Assembly (NCBI GenBank): GCA_026983715.1
Contig: JALSTM010000203.1
Span: forward strand, 1-42,098
Source: Desulfobacterales bacterium
GTDB lineage: Bacteria; Desulfobacterota; Syntrophobacteria; B119-G9
Length of the DNA stretch: 42,098 nt
Direction: 5' to 3'
The translations under genes and the position numbers were made by a program. The notes below the pieces were generated by a model, which did no database searches, was not told the DNA's origin, and saw only the letters and a program-made list of their open reading frames with translations. This document shows, in pieces, positions 7,258 to 16,519 of the stretch (positions are counted from its first letter, which is position 1; each line of letters opens with the position of its first letter).

Positions 7258-9210
7258 ATGATCGACAAGTTGAAGGTAATATTTGGTGAGAACGGTTTTT
7301 TATCCAGGAGTCTTCCCGGTTATGAGCGCCGAGAAAATCAGCTGGAAATGGCACTTGCTGTCGGAGAAGCCCTGGAAGAAAGCAGCCCCCTTCTCGTAGA
7401 GGCTCCCACCGGTATAGGTAAAACTCTTGCTTACCTGATTCCTTCTATATTGAGCGAAAAAAGAGTTATTATTTCAACAGGTACGAAAAATCTCCAGGAT
7501 CAGATTTTTGAAAAAGACATTCCACTCTTGAAAAAATATTTTTGGCCACCCTTGAAAGCTATATGCGTTAAAGGAAGAAATAATTATCTTTGCAAGAGGC
7601 GCTTTTTAGAGACGTTGAGACAACCTTCTGTTATGAGTCTGGGTAGTGGAGCGGTCCTAAAGAAACTCCATTACTGGTATCAGAGAACTTCCACGGGGGA
7701 CAGGGCCGAAATTGAGTGGTTACCGGATGACTCTGTGCTCTGGTCTGAAATTAGCAGCAGTTCGGATCAATGCGTGGGATCTGAATGCAAGCATTATCAC
7801 GAATGTTTTATAACGAGGCTAAAACAGAGAGCCGCTGCATGCGATCTCATAATAGTTAACCATTATCTTTATTTTGCCGATCTTGCGCTAAAGGAGGGTG
7901 ATTTTGGAGCAGTCTTACCCGGACATGAGGCCGTAATATTTGATGAGGCACACCAACTTGACAATGTCGCTACAAACTACTTTGGACAGGAACTCAGCGT
8001 TTACAGGTTTTTGGAGTTGGTTCACGATATTAAAAAAGAACTTTTGAGTGCTGGGGTAAAAAAAAGCGAGGAAATAGATTCCAAGCTTGAGGCCCTAGAA
8101 ATATCGGCGAGGAAATATTTTGCCAGTTTTGATGGTTTCAGGGGCAGGAAAAGGCTTGAAGAGTTTGAGCATATTGATCAACTTGGGGAGGTAGCAGAAA
8201 AAATTTGTAACTTTCTGGATGCGCTTGCTGGCGATCTGGTTACGCTAGTTGATTTAAGCCCGGGGCTTAATTCATGTCATACAAGGGCTCTTAATCTGAA
8301 AAGACTTGTGCATATCTTTACTTCCCGTGACAACCCAGAGATGGTCTACTGGTGTGAAATACGAAAGCGCGGGGCATTCCTGCACGCATCACCGATAAAT
8401 GTGTCTTCATACCTAAAAGAACTCCTTTTCGATAGAATAGGACCTGTCATACTTACTTCCGCTACCCTGGCCATAGGAGATGATTTTACTTTTATGAGAC
8501 AGTGCTTGGGGGTACCTGATGAAGCCAGGGAGATTGTATTGAGTTCCCATTTTGATTTCAAAAATAACCTGATTATTTACGTTCCGAAGGATATTCCAGA
8601 ACCTTCATCACCGCAGTTTATTGGAAGATTCTGCGAAGGTGTGGAAAAGTTATTGTGCATAACGAAGGGGAGAGCTCTTATTCTTTTCACGAGCTACAAA
8701 AACATGGAAGACGCATACAATCTGTTAAGGGATAAGAATTTGCCTTATAGGTTTCTGGTTCAAGGAGAGAAGCCAAGGAATACGCTGCTTAAAGAATTTA
8801 AAGAAGATTTGCACTCGGTGTTGCTAGCCACGGGGTCATTCTGGGAGGGTGTGGATGTCCCGGGGCCTTCGCTAAGCTCGGTGGTAATAGACAAGTTACC
8901 CTTTGAAGTACCCAGTGATCCGGTACTGGCTGCGCGCCTTGAAAAGTTGAGGAACGAGGGGCTGGATCCTTTCTGGCAATATCAGGTTCCCCAGGCGATC
9001 CTCAGCCTAAAACAGGGAGTGGGAAGACTGATAAGAACGGTTGAAGACAGGGGTGTGGTAGCGTTAATGGACGTAAGGATTTGGCGTCGGGCTTATGGGA
9101 AGAAGTTCCTGGAGAATCTTCCCGAATGTAAGGTAACATCGGACTTGAAGGAAATATCCAACTTTTTCAAGAATGATCATGGTTGCAACTTTTTTCAAAG
9201 CGCAAAATAA
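7258..9210 (+). CDS. dinG: DinG/YoaA-family ATP-dependent DNA helicase, Fe-S type
   Basis: An XPD-like superfamily 2 helicase that unwinds DNA 5' to 3' and is used in repair and replication-conflict resolution. The 650 residues contain Walker A APTGIGKT (49-56), DEAH at 229-232, and four cysteines (112, 172, 177, 183) spaced as in the 4Fe-4S helicases. Helicase motifs GSFWEGVDVPG and QGVGRLIR lie near the C-terminus. The length and lack of an exonuclease domain fit the proteobacterial DinG/YoaA group; I cannot separate the two names from sequence alone. The 3' end overlaps the oppositely oriented histidine kinase gene by 44 bp. Its promoter must lie in the 118-bp divergent spacer shared with the RSH gene. 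Confidence 0.88.
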   Translation: MIDKLKVIFGENGFLSRSLPGYERRENQLEMALAVGEALEESSPLLVEAPTGIGKTLAYLIPSILSEKRVIISTGTKNLQDQIFEKDIPLLKKYFWPPLKAICVKGRNNYLCKRRFLETLRQPSVMSLGSGAVLKKLHYWYQRTSTGDRAEIEWLPDDSVLWSEISSSSDQCVGSECKHYHECFITRLKQRAAACDLIIVNHYLYFADLALKEGDFGAVLPGHEAVIFDEAHQLDNVATNYFGQELSVYRFLELVHDIKKELLSAGVKKSEEIDSKLEALEISARKYFASFDGFRGRKRLEEFEHIDQLGEVAEKICNFLDALAGDLVTLVDLSPGLNSCHTRALNLKRLVHIFTSRDNPEMVYWCEIRKRGAFLHASPINVSSYLKELLFDRIGPVILTSATLAIGDDFTFMRQCLGVPDEAREIVLSSHFDFKNNLIIYVPKDIPEPSSPQFIGRFCEGVEKLLCITKGRALILFTSYKNMEDAYNLLRDKNLPYRFLVQGEKPRNTLLKEFKEDLHSVLLATGSFWEGVDVPGPSLSSVVIDKLPFEVPSDPVLAARLEKLRNEGLDPFWQYQVPQAILSLKQGVGRLIRTVEDRGVVALMDVRIWRRAYGKKFLENLPECKVTSDLKEISNFFKNDHGCNFFQSAK

Positions 9211-10960
9211 CATTAACCAAATCTATGATGGTAAAGGGTTTATGGAGACATGCGAATGCTCCCAGCCCCAGCAATTCTTCGGTTAACCCGGGTTTTGCAG
9301 CTCCAGTTATAACCATGCATGGGATAGGCGGATTGAAGCGCTGACACCTTGCCAGGATATGTTCACCGCTGAGTCCCGGCATAAGTAAATCAGTAATCAC
9401 CAGGTCGAAGTGTTCATGTTCAAGCTTATCCATAGCCTCGGAACTGTCATTTTCCGAAATGACACTGTGTCCCCGAGCCCGAAGTAACTTGGTTATCCCT
9501 TCCGCAATTTCCCTTTCGTCGTCCACCACTAGGATTTTCAGGCTTTTCACAGCATGGTCTATGTGATCAGGTACTACCTGATCGGCCAGGTATATTCCTT
9601 TTTCCAATCCTTCCGGTGGGATCGGTATGTAAATCGTAAAGCAAGTTCCCTTGTCAATCTCACTTTCTACTTCTATCCGGCCTCCCAGTGAACTTACTAT
9701 ACCGTGAACCACTGATAGTCCGAGCCCTGATCCCGGGACATCACTATTTCCCCATACTCCCTTTGTGGTAAAAAATGGTTCAAAAATTTTCTCCAAGTTT
9801 TCGCTTGGTATGCCGCAACCTGTATCGCGTATGCTAAGAGCCACTTCACCGTCGGTTTCTCTGGCGGTAATTTCCAGGGTTCCGCCGTCACCCATTGCGT
9901 GGTAAGCATTAATTATAATATTAACCAGAACTTGTTGAAGCTCTGTTTCGCTTGCCCACACCGGAGACAGTTGCTCGGGGAAATCTTTCCTTATTTCGAT
10001 GTTTGATTTTTTCATACTGCTTTCCAGCAGGCTGAGAGAACTTTCACAGCATTTTTGCAAGTTGACGTAATGACGTTCATGTGATGATTGCCTGCTGAAT
10101 GTAAGGAGGTTTCTTGCGATTTGGGATGCCCTCTTTGCAGAATCTATCGCTATATCCACAGCCTTAGCCAGAGACTCCTTGGTATTGTCCAGCTTGGCCA
10201 ATTCAGCGTGTGCTATGATGACAGTGAGTATGTTATTGAACTCGTGAGAAATCCCCGCCGCCAATTGGCCTACTGCTGCCATTCTTTCCGAGTGGACCAG
10301 CGATGCGGTCCTTTGACGTACTGCTTTCTCCAAGTTCCTTGTGTGTTGTTCAAGTTCCTTCTGAGCTTCCATGAGCTTTAACCTTGTCTCAAGTTCCTGT
10401 AGGCTCAGCGTTTCTTTAAATTTAAATCCCACAAGCACGATTATCATCGTAGATACGAGGAAGAAGCTCTGGCTGTAAAAACCCACCAGACCTTTCCCGT
10501 GCATGATGAAAGGTAGGGTTAAAAAAATGTAAGAAGCATATATCAGTACACAGGTTATGATGCCCTCGAAAATTGTCATGGGCATCAATAGTCCTGCAAC
10601 AATGACAGCGAGATTTATCCCGGCGTAATATCCGCTGGACGGACCACCTAAAAAGTATGTCATGAGAGCTATGGATATGCCAACGGAACTGACGCCATAA
10701 ATTGCAAAGTAGTGGCAATATTTTTCCCCGGCTTTGCTTTTGTTCAAAAAATAGACGAGCAGTAAACTTAGGGAACAAACCAATCTGATTGTTAAAAGCG
10801 GTATTAATTGATCCCTTGCCGTCAGGTAATCGAGGATACCAAAAGCCGGTACAAGCAGGCAGCCAATTATACAACCAACTTCTACTGCACGTCGGAGCTT
10901 TTCTTTACGCTCCTTTTCGTAAATTGTTTTAAGCTGAGACCTGTCAGGCTTTAAACTCAT
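9167..10960 (-). CDS. Membrane hybrid histidine kinase with C-terminal receiver domain
   Basis: A sensor kinase of 597 residues from the ATG at 10960; a TTG at 10996 would add 12 residues but has no ribosome binding site. About six hydrophobic segments (roughly residues 28-183) form a membrane sensor without a large periplasmic loop. A coiled coil and the HisKA domain with the phospho-acceptor in GISHEFNN (His239) follow. The ATPase shows NIIINAYHAM (N box), DTGCGIP (G1), FEPFFTTK and GSGLGLSVV. The C-terminal receiver has DDE near its start, the phospho-acceptor Asp524 in ITDLLMPG, and HKPF with the conserved Lys. No DNA-binding output is present, so its target lies elsewhere. It lies 109 bp downstream of, and on the same strand as, the PilZ fusion gene, so co-transcription is possible. 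Ligand unknown. Confidence 0.88.
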   Translation of the reverse strand: MSLKPDRSQLKTIYEKERKEKLRRAVEVGCIIGCLLVPAFGILDYLTARDQLIPLLTIRLVCSLSLLLVYFLNKSKAGEKYCHYFAIYGVSSVGISIALMTYFLGGPSSGYYAGINLAVIVAGLLMPMTIFEGIITCVLIYASYIFLTLPFIMHGKGLVGFYSQSFFLVSTMIIVLVGFKFKETLSLQELETRLKLMEAQKELEQHTRNLEKAVRQRTASLVHSERMAAVGQLAAGISHEFNNILTVIIAHAELAKLDNTKESLAKAVDIAIDSAKRASQIARNLLTFSRQSSHERHYVNLQKCCESSLSLLESSMKKSNIEIRKDFPEQLSPVWASETELQQVLVNIIINAYHAMGDGGTLEITARETDGEVALSIRDTGCGIPSENLEKIFEPFFTTKGVWGNSDVPGSGLGLSVVHGIVSSLGGRIEVESEIDKGTCFTIYIPIPPEGLEKGIYLADQVVPDHIDHAVKSLKILVVDDEREIAEGITKLLRARGHSVISENDSSEAMDKLEHEHFDLVITDLLMPGLSGEHILARCQRFNPPIPCMVITGAAKPGLTEELLGLGAFACLHKPFTIIDLVNVILRFEKSCNHDHS

Positions 10961-11069
10961 ACAAGTATCCGGCAACCAAGTTACCTTGTGTAACAAAGCT
11001 GTATATTGAATTGTTTTTCTTTAATGTTTCAGCATAACAGAAAAATTTTCTTCTAGCCACTGGTTCATG

Positions 11070-14000
11070 TTACTTCCGTGCTTTTACAATAAAGGCCTGA
11101 GCCGGATTGCCATAGGATTCTGATACTGTAATCACTTCTAAACCGACCTCCTGTGTCATTTCCAACAGTTCTTCAAGATGAAAGAAACGGAATTTTCTCT
11201 CGTCCACCAGTTGAATGAGTTGTGCCGCAGAATTTGCAAAATCCCGTACGGCCTTGAGATATCTTTCTTTCTGACCTGGCGGTACAGGAATTGTGCCTTT
11301 GTTCAGGCGATCTACCATTTTCGTAAATATGGTAGACATGTCTGTATCGGGTTTCATGGAGGATATCACCATAATTCCGCCTGGCTTTAAGCACCTTGAG
11401 AACTCTGCAAGGGTATCCAATGGGTTTTTCATGTAAGATAAAACAAGGCTACTTACGATTCTGTCAAAAAGTTCGTTCTCAAAGGGTAGCCTGAATACCA
11501 CATTTTTGAGATCAATACCAAGCAGTCTAAAATCGTTTTGTTGAAATTCATTCGTTAGGTTGTTAGTGCCAAACGATATGAACGGGCATAATGGAGCTAT
11601 CATCTGCCTTATTATCGTTGATACTTTATTAAATTCCAATATTATTTTCTTTTCTTCCCTTGGAAATATGCTATCGAGGTATTCAATGTCTTTATCGGTA
11701 ATTTTCTTCCCCCTCAAAATGTAATATAGACGCCGGCTGAAATTCTTTTTCCAGAGGTTTATAGTGTAGTTCGTAATGGCCGGGATCTGTCCTCTCAAGT
11801 CATCCAATGTACAGTACTCCCCAAGCAAAAATTTTTTTATTGGGAGCGCCTGGTGGATATCCAGGTCTGCCTTAACGATTTCAAAGGCATCAGGCTCTAT
11901 CCCTTTTTCCCTTCCCGAAGAGAGGCATTTGTCCCTGGCCTTGGTTAGTGCCTCATAAACAAGGTCAACAAGGGTAAAAGTAGGGAAAGAAGCAGGGTCA
12001 CGGTCAAAATCTTCTACAAATTGAAGCACTAGATTTCCCGTGCCACATCCCATATCGGCAACTTTCTGGTTATCCTTAACATCAAGGAGTCTTATCTGCT
12101 CACGAATAAACTCGACGTATTCTTCGCAATAGCGTAAGATGTCATAGCCAAGGTCAGATTCATCCTCACCCATTAAGTAATTAGACCAGTACTGGCGCTT
12201 GCTCAGAGTAAACTCTCTAGAGCTGAGTTTCCACTCAAGTTCCTGTTTCTCAATCAACTCGGTGAGGTTTGGGGAAAAATCCACCATTTCTTCCCTGCTA
12301 ATAAATGGCCACATCTCCTCAAAAATAGTCTCGAAAACTCCTAGTGCTTCTTCTCCATTTAACGGTAAATGTCCGGTTGGAATTATCTTGATCTTTTTCC
12401 ATCCCCTTTGCTTGGCTGCCATGAGTTTTTCGACGCTGTCAGGATCAATCCACGAGTCGTAAGCCCCGTATAACCACATCACCGGGATATCTATCCTCGA
12501 CATATCCTCTATGGCTTCTTCCAGGGTTACGTATCCCTTTGCCAGTGCGTCCTCACAGAAACGGTCGCCACCTACCGTTATCCCGAGAATGGTCACTTCC
12601 CCAAGGTGTTTACCACTCCTGTACAAGTCAAAGTAATCTATTCCCCCAGAGACCTTTATTAGAAGGTCTCCCATATCAGTTGCTCCCATCGGCGCAATCC
12701 AGAGGTGCGTACGTTTTCTCCGGTCTTTTACTATAGCCTTTCTCGCAAATAGGGCTCCTATGCTGAAGCTTATGAGAATAATATCTTTCGCAAGAAAATA
12801 GTCGTTGTTTTCTACAAAATCGAGAACGGAGAGGAGGTCTTCTGTACCCTGGGAGAGGGTCATGTGAAGGCATTCTTTCCAGGGCTCCCTGCATTGTGGA
12901 TCCTTGTAACTGTCACCAATATGGTTTGTCGAATCGTACCTTACTACGACGGCATCATTGTATTGATTTCGAAACCGCTCTATAAAATAATGGCTGCAAA
13001 GTCCAAGAGCCTCTTTTCTTTTGCCGTAGGGAGGAGGTAACACGACTACTGTGGCTCTTCTTCGATCTGATGTTTTCCAGGTAGTATTTAAGAATCCTAC
13101 GATTTCCTGGTTTCTTTTATTCAAGGTGGTGAAACGAATCGTATCGGTTGCCTCTCTGCTCGTACCACTACCTTCTTGACCTATTTGAGGCCGGACGCCC
13201 GTTTTTAGTACTTGTTTAAACGTGTTAATTATACTTCCCCTGGGTTTAGCAGGAGCTTTTTCCCTAACGGGTTTTCTTGCCCGTTTCACCAGTTGCGGCT
13301 GCGAGTGTCCCTTGGCAAAAGCCTTGTTTGATATCTGGAGTTGAACTCCGATCTTGAGGTACGGTTCTTCTGAATCCTTCACTACGGGGGTAACGTGCCT
13401 GATTTGACCTGCAGACACAAAGGGCTCCCTGTTTTTGCCAAATATGCGGAGTGTGCTTATGGGAGTTCCTGGTAGGAAATATGCAGAATCTATGGGACAT
13501 TTGAATGCAAAACCACCGGAAGAAATGTCAATAATTTCTCTTTTTATCGTTGCCCCTTTGGGGTACGGAACGGGAATTTCAACCCACATGGTTCCAGGAT
13601 CAACCACAGTTCTTTCTTCCTCCCTGAGAGACGACGAAAGAAGAAGAACGGGGTTCTTAACTACCAGAGTATCCTTGGAAAGTTCTTTTGGGTAAGCAAC
13701 GAAGAGGTGCTGTCTGAAACCGGCTGCCCAAAATACATACAAAGGGTCAGTCAAAGGAGCTTCAAATAATGAACTGCTTGCTTCTATAATCTTAAACAAA
13801 AATTCCCCGTTTGCTTCCGAACGAAAAGATATCTTGGCAACACCGGTGAAATTGTGACCAGTAAAGTATATTATACTTTCGGTGGTCATAAGGTCTTTCA
13901 GAGTGCTAAAAACTTTTTTTTCTTCAAATAAGCCTACGAGGTTCCTGGGAACAAAAAAGGAGGTTCGGTCCGGAATTCTTGAAAACACCTCGCGCCACAG

Positions 14001-14324
14001 AGTTGATATGTAGAAATAAGAGAGCTGCTTTTCATCTTCCCTTTCTGCTTCCACAATGTCAAAGGATATGAAATGGTTCTCGTTATTGCTTTTTTTCACG
14101 TCAGCAACTTCTGCTGTTACGGACAGGTTGCGGTTAAGCTCGTCGGTGCTGATTACGAGGGTTACTAGAGATCCAACTTGAAGTTGCTGGCTCAAAGATG
14201 CATGGATTCTTTTAAGTGAAATCCTAACGCAATTGCCGTGGATCTCGCTCTCGGCATCCTTTACAACTACGGGGATATCGGTTTTAATTTCAGGCAAAAT
14301 TCTCGATTCTTTTGCTACGGACAT
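11070..14324 (-). CDS. PilZ / LuxD-like serine hydrolase / SAM methyltransferase fusion protein
   Basis: A 1084-residue multidomain protein I do not recognise as a named family. Residues 1-215 look like a YcgR-N/PilZ-like beta domain pair. Residues about 230-332 form a PilZ domain with the c-di-GMP signature R234-EEE-R238 and D266-ISSGG. A basic, Pro-rich linker (340-390) follows. Residues about 395-672 are an alpha/beta hydrolase with candidate nucleophile Ser521 in SFSIG, Asp623 in YGAYDSWID and His652 in PTGHLPL. The layout recalls LuxD acyl-transferases/thioesterases. Residues about 735-1084 are a class I methyltransferase with motif I DMGCGTG (757-763), acidic Asp787, an insertion (about 820-945) and the motif IV/V-like PFENELFDRIVSS. 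A good site (TGGAGAAACAG) precedes the ATG. I infer c-di-GMP-controlled acyl and methyl chemistry; substrates are unknown. Confidence 0.72.
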   Translation of the reverse strand: MSVAKESRILPEIKTDIPVVVKDAESEIHGNCVRISLKRIHASLSQQLQVGSLVTLVISTDELNRNLSVTAEVADVKKSNNENHFISFDIVEAEREDEKQLSYFYISTLWREVFSRIPDRTSFFVPRNLVGLFEEKKVFSTLKDLMTTESIIYFTGHNFTGVAKISFRSEANGEFLFKIIEASSSLFEAPLTDPLYVFWAAGFRQHLFVAYPKELSKDTLVVKNPVLLLSSSLREEERTVVDPGTMWVEIPVPYPKGATIKREIIDISSGGFAFKCPIDSAYFLPGTPISTLRIFGKNREPFVSAGQIRHVTPVVKDSEEPYLKIGVQLQISNKAFAKGHSQPQLVKRARKPVREKAPAKPRGSIINTFKQVLKTGVRPQIGQEGSGTSREATDTIRFTTLNKRNQEIVGFLNTTWKTSDRRRATVVVLPPPYGKRKEALGLCSHYFIERFRNQYNDAVVVRYDSTNHIGDSYKDPQCREPWKECLHMTLSQGTEDLLSVLDFVENNDYFLAKDIILISFSIGALFARKAIVKDRRKRTHLWIAPMGATDMGDLLIKVSGGIDYFDLYRSGKHLGEVTILGITVGGDRFCEDALAKGYVTLEEAIEDMSRIDIPVMWLYGAYDSWIDPDSVEKLMAAKQRGWKKIKIIPTGHLPLNGEEALGVFETIFEEMWPFISREEMVDFSPNLTELIEKQELEWKLSSREFTLSKRQYWSNYLMGEDESDLGYDILRYCEEYVEFIREQIRLLDVKDNQKVADMGCGTGNLVLQFVEDFDRDPASFPTFTLVDLVYEALTKARDKCLSSGREKGIEPDAFEIVKADLDIHQALPIKKFLLGEYCTLDDLRGQIPAITNYTINLWKKNFSRRLYYILRGKKITDKDIEYLDSIFPREEKKIILEFNKVSTIIRQMIAPLCPFISFGTNNLTNEFQQNDFRLLGIDLKNVVFRLPFENELFDRIVSSLVLSYMKNPLDTLAEFSRCLKPGGIMVISSMKPDTDMSTIFTKMVDRLNKGTIPVPPGQKERYLKAVRDFANSAAQLIQLVDERKFRFFHLEELLEMTQEVGLEVITVSESYGNPAQAFIVKARK

Positions 14325-14752
14325 CTGTTTCTCCAGGAATAAATTGTGGTTTTTGTCTCTTGAATAAGGTGCTACCCCTTAGAATAGCAAAAGAAATATC
14401 TAGGAAACAATTTTATCTATGGGAAAGTTTTAATAATTGCTCTACATTGCAAAGAGTATGCGTTACTTTATGCCGGTCCTGATCTGATATCCAGAAAAAT
14501 AATATTGTAAATTCCCGCTCCGATCTTGGCTACGGCTAGAGTGACCGAAGTAGCATTATTCGTGTTGTAATATCACGATATTACACATGTGCATTACGGG
14601 GTTTTTGTGGATGATCAGGCAAGCGTGCGAGGCGTAACTAGATCATGCTAGATCCGTCTGCAAGCAAGGTTGTGATGCGGAAACTTCTAGGCCACTTAAG
14701 CCTGGGTGGTATCTTAATGGTAAAAGGGCTTTCTTGTTTTTGTTTTAAAGCC
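14325..14752. other. Upstream region of the PilZ fusion gene
   Basis: About 430 bp without a supported gene. It must hold the promoter for the PilZ fusion. A weak minus-strand candidate (TTGTTT and TATTCT, 18 apart) lies roughly 60-100 bp before the start, but I do not regard it as established. The clearest signal is the palindrome at 14566-14585. No terminator for the upstream MBL-fold gene is obvious. Confidence 0.4.
14566..14585. promoter_or_regulatory. Perfect palindrome, candidate operator
   Basis: TGTAATATC-AC-GATATTACA is a perfect inverted repeat with 9-bp arms and a 2-base centre, the form expected of a dimeric regulator site. It lies about 240 bp before the PilZ fusion start and 167 bp past the MBL-fold stop. 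Its high A+T content and lack of a T run argue against a terminator. The regulator is unknown. Confidence 0.45.
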
Positions 14753-15619: not shown

Positions 15620-16519
15620 CTAAAATTTTATCTTGAGGAAAAGATTTACGCCTTGCGGTTCGCTTTCAACAGCTATTTGACGATATGAAAGGTTCGCTTT
15701 TGTTGCTAAATCGACAAGCATTTCAGCGGATCTGTGAATTAAAAACCAATGTCCGAATTCCATGTAAGGCCTTGTTGGATTTTTGAGTGAAAAATTGCCA
15801 AGAATTATGTAGCCTCTCTTTTTGATCCATTTTTGAAATCGTTTTAGCAGGTAAAGAAAAACTTTATCGCTCAAGTAATCAAAGACACCTGCAGACCAAA
15901 TAACGTCATAGCGTTTTTGGGGATTAAACCTTAGAATGTTCTTGTGTATAAAGTTTAGTTTCGTAGCGTTTTTTTTGTTTAATTTCAGGGCGTATTGAAT
16001 AGCCTTTTTATCAATATCAACACAATCTATCGAAATATTGGATTCATCAAGGCTCTCGAAGAGCTCTTTCATGTCGCGTCCTGAACCACTACCCACGTTC
16101 AATATGGATAAAGCACCGTTCTTTTCTTTGGCAAGTTTGCTCATGGTATTGATAAAGTACTTTTTCCTGTTTCTAACTGCTTTGACGGCTGCCCGCTCGT
16201 GAAAATACAGGTCCCACTTTGTGAGACCTTTGTCTGGGGAACACCATTTTTGATAAATCCTATCGATAATCTCAAAATCCCCGGCGTAACCGTGAGGCTT
16301 CAGCACAACGAATCCCTGCATAGTATTGACGGTTAAGAAAACTTTCCGAAAGGAAGTCCAGTACTTGGGAATGTCGTCGTAATCGATAATCCCTCTTTTT
16401 ATAGCGTAGTAAAAATTGTTGAAGCATCTCGTTAGATTATCGTACTCTTTTTCTTCAGGGCCGCCGTTATTAATTAGGTGCCTGATAAACTCAACAGATT
16501 CTCGTAAATTCCTGTTCAT
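15620..16519 (-). CDS. Class I SAM methyltransferase with N-terminal GYAGD motif
   Basis: A 299-residue SAM-dependent methyltransferase. The C-terminal Rossmann domain shows motif I LNVGSGSGRD (about 139-148), an acidic VDID after strand 2, and DVIWSAGVFDYL. The N-terminal helical region carries LKPHGYAGDFEIIDRIYQ and AVKAVRNRKKYF. As far as I recall, this combination marks a family often annotated as making 3-hydroxypalmitic acid methyl ester (PhcB-like), but that link is from memory and untested. The product could be any small molecule or lipid. It precedes the MBL-fold gene by 87 bp on the same strand and follows the M16 gene by 68 bp, so it may be the distal part of the long operon. The ribosome binding site is weak. 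Codon use is A+T-richer than its neighbours. Confidence 0.75.
   Translation of the reverse strand: MNRNLRESVEFIRHLINNGGPEEKEYDNLTRCFNNFYYAIKRGIIDYDDIPKYWTSFRKVFLTVNTMQGFVVLKPHGYAGDFEIIDRIYQKWCSPDKGLTKWDLYFHERAAVKAVRNRKKYFINTMSKLAKEKNGALSILNVGSGSGRDMKELFESLDESNISIDCVDIDKKAIQYALKLNKKNATKLNFIHKNILRFNPQKRYDVIWSAGVFDYLSDKVFLYLLKRFQKWIKKRGYIILGNFSLKNPTRPYMEFGHWFLIHRSAEMLVDLATKANLSYRQIAVESEPQGVNLFLKIKF

Follow-up and report, generated by a model that had tools for sequence, protein, structure and literature searches.

Does a single gene in this uncultured bacterium really encode a c-di-GMP sensor joined to two enzymes, and what would such a protein do? We analyzed a 42,098-nucleotide stretch of DNA (the window), together with two related genomes, G001 and G002, the latter from a second species of the genus. 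An initial annotation, made from the letters alone, had placed a PilZ domain, a LuxD-like hydrolase, and a SAM methyltransferase in one 1084-residue protein. We found that the gene is a single minus-strand open reading frame running from ATG to TAA with no internal stop, and that every motif of the initial annotation falls in this one frame, residue for residue. The three-part layout held, but it had overlooked a degenerate PilZ domain at residues 5-102, a barrel at about 135-230, and an insert in the methyltransferase (Table 1). Our preferred reading, to which we give a probability of roughly 0.5, is a cytosolic bifunctional enzyme, hydrolase and methyltransferase, under direct c-di-GMP control.

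Table 1 Features of the fusion gene and its downstream neighbor in the window.
Feature	Position	Strand	Details
Fusion gene, PilZ / LuxD-like hydrolase / methyltransferase	11070..14324	-	1084 aa; kept in G002, partly in G001
Degenerate PilZ, residues 5-102, without RxxxR/DxSxxG	14019..14312	-	PF07238 34-35 bits, cut-off 22.5; modelled beta-barrel plus helix
Second beta-barrel region, residues ~135-230	13635..13922	-	Modelled strands 150-230
Canonical PilZ, residues 234-332, predicted c-di-GMP receptor	13329..13625	-	PF07238 27.5-28 bits, cut-off 22.5
RxxxR, R234-EEE-R238	13611..13625	-	Identical in all three genomes
DxSxxG, DISSGG, residues 266-271	13512..13529	-	Complete in G002; DISS up to contig end in G001
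Basic linker, low conservation, residues 338-393	13146..13313	-	55% identity to G002
LuxD-like alpha/beta hydrolase, residues 394-675	12300..13145	-	PF02273 above cut-off; 1THT first by profile; fold model
Predicted nucleophile Ser521, in SFSIG	12762..12764	-	Pairs with LuxD Ser114; modelled strand-turn-helix elbow
Predicted acid Asp623	12456..12458	-	Pairs with LuxD Asp211; invariant across 13 hydrolases
Predicted base His652	12369..12371	-	Follows last core strand in model; aligns with LuxD catalytic His region
Class I SAM methyltransferase, residues 690-1084	11073..12257	-	Methyltransf_23/11/31 above cut-off
SAM motif I DMGCGTG, residues 757-763	12036..12056	-	Sequence motif
Methyltransferase insert, residues ~816-930, ahead of LPFEN/FDRI motif	11535..11879	-	Gap separating two HMM stretches
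Hybrid histidine kinase with receiver, downstream	9167..10996	-	HisKA, HATPase_c, Response_reg; 73-base gap to fusion

The N-terminal part matches PilZ (PF07238) twice above the curated cut-off, and the RxxxR and DxSxxG motifs of the proposed c-di-GMP signature are both present within the second match. The region between the two matches had no Pfam match. When the N-terminal model region was compared with the PDB using Foldseek, the top structure was PlzA with c-di-GMP, followed by MrkH, YcgR, and Alg44. The PilZ fold was predicted clearly for the degenerate domain, while the canonical domain was modelled at low confidence only; its assignment is based on Pfam and the two motifs. The second barrel, which lies directly before RxxxR, may correspond in position to the N-terminal domain of YcgR. 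The canonical PilZ is a predicted c-di-GMP receptor. Six GGDEF domains above cut-off were found in the window's genome, so c-di-GMP synthesis is likely there.

The EEE spacer between the two arginines is unusual and acidic, and may weaken ligand binding. It is one of the points that could suggest a PilZ part that has lost c-di-GMP binding and serves just for docking or dimerization, leaving the enzymes constitutive. The first PilZ, which has neither motif, and the scaffold role of non-canonical PilZ domains (PMC10333796) point the same way. We consider this unlikely: G002 retains R234, R238, D266, S268, and G271, and no segment is better conserved than the canonical PilZ, while identity (to G002 and G001) over the first 230 residues is only 36-46%.

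PilZ domains were also observed in other proteins. In the window's genome, L044:736-3009 (+) (G000:C61) encodes 757 residues with TPR, PilZ, and Ser/Thr protein kinase domains, a possible c-di-GMP-linked kinase; L050:19-1842 (+) (G000:C190) encodes a histidine kinase (PAS-HisKA-HATPase) with PilZ at its C-terminus; and L047:679-1866 (+) (G000:C260) encodes one protein that combines PilZ with FHA and cyclic-nucleotide-binding domains. L012:1-2055 (-) (G056:C276), from a different family of the phylum, is cut by the contig end; the 685 or more residues that it encodes include a Pfam PilZ at 309-422 and an apparent second PilZ-like stretch closer to the start.

LuxD is the fatty-acid-releasing enzyme of light-making bacteria. 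Among the Pfam and NCBIfam families tested on the hydrolase, LuxD came first with E = 1e-10, against E = 0.21 for BioH. The LuxD family PF02273 (Acyl_transf_2) spans residues 413-645 and scored 40 bits on the whole protein (cut-off 20.3), 43-44 bits when run on the genome match and on the hydrolase segment by itself, and 51 bits in G002. Generic alpha/beta hydrolases of the class were far weaker on the hydrolase profile than LuxD. The LuxD equivalog NF052253 gave 41 bits, with a cut-off of 420. On sequence grounds, the hydrolase is classified as LuxD-like, not as a LuxD equivalog.

The hydrolase profile placed 1THT first in the PDB, with an HMMER alignment spanning core and cap. The alignment paired S521 with S114 and D623 with D211, LuxD residue numbers being counted from the printed alignment. 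We take the catalytic triad of LuxD to be S114, D211, and H241 (Lawson et al. 1994). The spacing from D623 to H652 is 29 residues, compared with 30 in LuxD. MAFFT alone displaced the nucleophile region by three columns; we favor the LuxD register, to which both the pairing by HMMER and the strand-turn-helix modelled at S521 point. Of the proposed triad, Ser521 and Asp623 were thus put in the LuxD places by alignment, and His652 by its order and the topology of the model. This model, built from 13 sequences, is an alpha/beta hydrolase (pTM 0.69, mean pLDDT 61, cap below 50). Its fold matches esterases, lipases, and LuxD, with LuxD at rank 4 in the PDB. We also searched the genome, which is 94% complete, for a LuxE partner. 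The best score was 21.8 bits with a cut-off of 24.9, and a LuxCDE-type reductase pathway was rejected because no LuxE lay above the cut-off.

The C-terminal part is, by its domain matches, a class I SAM methyltransferase, as first proposed: Methyltransf_23/11/31 lie above cut-off, with the Pfam span at 919-1066 and motif I upstream of it. The insert is about 115 residues long. Methyltransferase matches in related genomes were mostly to the conserved LPFE region. No equivalog cut-off in NCBIfam was reached by the methyltransferase. BioC (TIGR02072) scored 25-36 bits with a cut-off of 185, and BioH (TIGR01738) scored 11 bits on the hydrolase with a cut-off of 207. Identity of the two enzymes as BioH and BioC was rejected by these family cut-offs.

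In the preferred reading, the canonical PilZ would bind c-di-GMP through R234/R238 and D266/S268/G271. Binding would change the relative orientation of the tandem barrels, as it does in YcgR, MrkH, and PlzA, and the attached enzymes would be switched allosterically. In PlzA, c-di-GMP rearranges the tandem barrels (PMC8323883), and PilZ domains fused to enzymes affect catalysis (PMC10333796). Through the proposed Ser-Asp-His triad, following LuxD chemistry, Ser521 would be acylated by a thioester or ester substrate and would then hand the acyl group on to water or a different acceptor. The methyltransferase domain would move the methyl group of SAM to a substrate held partly by the insert. The methyl acceptor would probably be that acyl compound or one related to it, which would place both enzymes in a shared pathway. 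A full-length model from four sequences had a mean pLDDT of 42 and was poor beyond the N-terminus, so no domain contacts can be read from it. The acidic RxxxR spacer and the lack of a LuxE match above cut-off count against this reading.

The two enzymes could also oppose each other. By analogy with BioG-BioC of Bacteroides fragilis, a hydrolase-methyltransferase fusion that acts on ACP chains in just such a manner (PMC3494674), the methyltransferase would make a methyl ester on an acyl-carrier chain or a protein, the serine hydrolase would cleave it, and c-di-GMP would set a reversible methylation. The fused methyltransferase does have a weak BioC match (35.7 bits), but of the 19 BioC-like matches in the genome it is one of the lowest-scoring, far under the cut-off, and the hydrolase is much closer to LuxD than to BioH. 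We therefore regard opposing activities as improbable.

A special case of the preferred reading, and the idea of the initial annotation, is that the freed fatty acid is converted to its methyl ester or a comparable lipid signal, and only when c-di-GMP is at a given level. LuxD frees the fatty acid from acyl-ACP by way of an acyl-serine, which is then hydrolyzed (PMC8301110), and the covalent joining of both enzymes is consistent with such a product. However, the sequence gives no evidence of a carboxyl or lipid acceptor, the NCBIfam search yielded no equivalog, and no lipid or signal receptor gene was identified among the neighbors. We consider this special case quite doubtful. It is likewise a rather slim prospect that the protein is a single-polypeptide synthase, in which c-di-GMP would directly switch acyl-chain release and methylation to give a methylated lipid or diffusible signal.

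The fusion was sought in related genomes as a test against a sequencing join, and was found in G002 and partially in G001, in the same neighborhood. One G002 contig carries a single frame for residues 140-1084, with 69% identity, and another ends in the start of the same fusion gene. The contigs have 220 bases in common (99.5% identity), so we rejected the idea of two fusion paralogues in G002. In G001, residues 1-269 are present up to the contig end. By segment, identity to G002 is 85% for the canonical PilZ (231-337), 78% for the hydrolase, 68% and 77% for the core parts of the methyltransferase, and 61% for its insert. Conservation is thus highest at the predicted c-di-GMP site and next highest in the enzymes, and G002 retains all of the sensor and catalytic residues that were checked. 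Compared with G002, third codon positions are near saturation across PilZ, linker, hydrolase, and methyltransferase (identity 0.36-0.44), while second positions reach 0.91 for PilZ and hydrolase. The difference between 0.91 and 0.44 indicates purifying selection on the sensor as well as on the enzymes. Metagenome assemblies are fragmented (the window's genome comprises 276 contigs), but an assembly join or chance frame can be practically dismissed, given the in-frame contig, overlapping start contig, and same neighbors in an independent species and the codon-position pattern. The fusion is genuine and conserved within one genus of uncultured bacteria.

We analyzed the gene neighborhood and found that the upstream order of M16 peptidase, 299-residue methyltransferase, MBL hydrolase, and fusion is the same in the window's genome, G001, and G002. 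The pnp gene precedes this row in the window and G001. The hybrid histidine kinase comes next after the fusion in both the window and G002, and is a possible operon partner. The 299-residue protein (15620-16519, -) is a separate SAM methyltransferase with an HGYAGDFE motif; its best plasmid match lies within an Enterobacter ludwigii type I polyketide synthase. The gap before the fusion gene is 428 bases (14325-14752), compared with ~131 and 98-146 in the two relatives, where the G001 start is uncertain.

To describe the distribution, we searched further genomes for relatives of the fusion. None was found in 53 other genomes of the class or in 247-395 sampled genomes of the phylum. Searching with separate segment profiles, we found the shared architecture within the genus and nothing beyond it in the genomes covered: 56 class genomes (E ≤ 1e-6) and 395 phylum genomes (E ≤ 1e-4) for the hydrolase, and 297 genomes each for the methyltransferase (E ≤ 1e-12) and the PilZ region (E ≤ 1e-8). 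Because each profile came from just two to four close sequences, and two of the searches used strict cut-offs, more distant relatives could have escaped them. For other phyla, coverage came from a peptide pattern scan of 84,980 species, which detects close relatives and returned no fusion relative. Among the genomes listed, the genus is the sole member of its family. The one PF02273 match elsewhere in the phylum that was read, L040, was an ordinary alpha/beta hydrolase. The plasmid search returned one acyl transferase beside an acyl-CoA reductase, in an E. coli pOX38 record, which is luxD, and nothing else; no relative was found in viral contigs.

PilZ outputs have so far been mainly motility, polysaccharide synthesis, transcription, and adaptors. 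If the preferred reading is true, small-molecule or lipid chemistry, comprising acyl and methyl transfer, would come under direct c-di-GMP control. Since the fusion is one soluble protein, this can be tested in vitro by ordinary assays. The initial annotation knew of no described protein with the combination of PilZ, LuxD-like hydrolase, and methyltransferase, and we likewise found none among the open-licence papers searched. The fusion of PilZ to an enzyme is a known theme, and this combination is a new variant of it.

Known systems share single aspects of the fusion. LuxD of Vibrio harveyi, a myristoyl-ACP thioesterase (1THT), has in common with the hydrolase an RYDSxxHxGxS segment and an alignable core and cap, but the two are only 23-24% identical and the hydrolase is embedded in a larger protein. 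The xPilZ-PilZ receptors YcgR, MrkH, and PlzA also have degenerate barrels ahead of a canonical PilZ with RxxxR and (D/N)xSxxG. They are flagellar-brake or DNA/RNA-binding proteins, whereas the fusion adds one barrel region and two enzyme domains. In the cellulose synthase BcsA, PilZ is likewise joined to an enzyme and controls its activity, but BcsA is a membrane glycosyltransferase with a C-terminal PilZ. MapZ-CheR1 also puts a methyltransferase under PilZ control, but through two separate proteins, with CheR methylating chemoreceptors. The CsdK1/CsdK2 PilZ-DnaK proteins of Myxococcus likewise combine PilZ with an unusual large soluble partner, in that case a chaperone (PMC10313047). BioG-BioC also unites an alpha/beta hydrolase and a SAM methyltransferase in one protein (PMC3494674); it has no PilZ, and the fusion described here carries a LuxD-like rather than BioH-like hydrolase and a methyltransferase that is not BioC.
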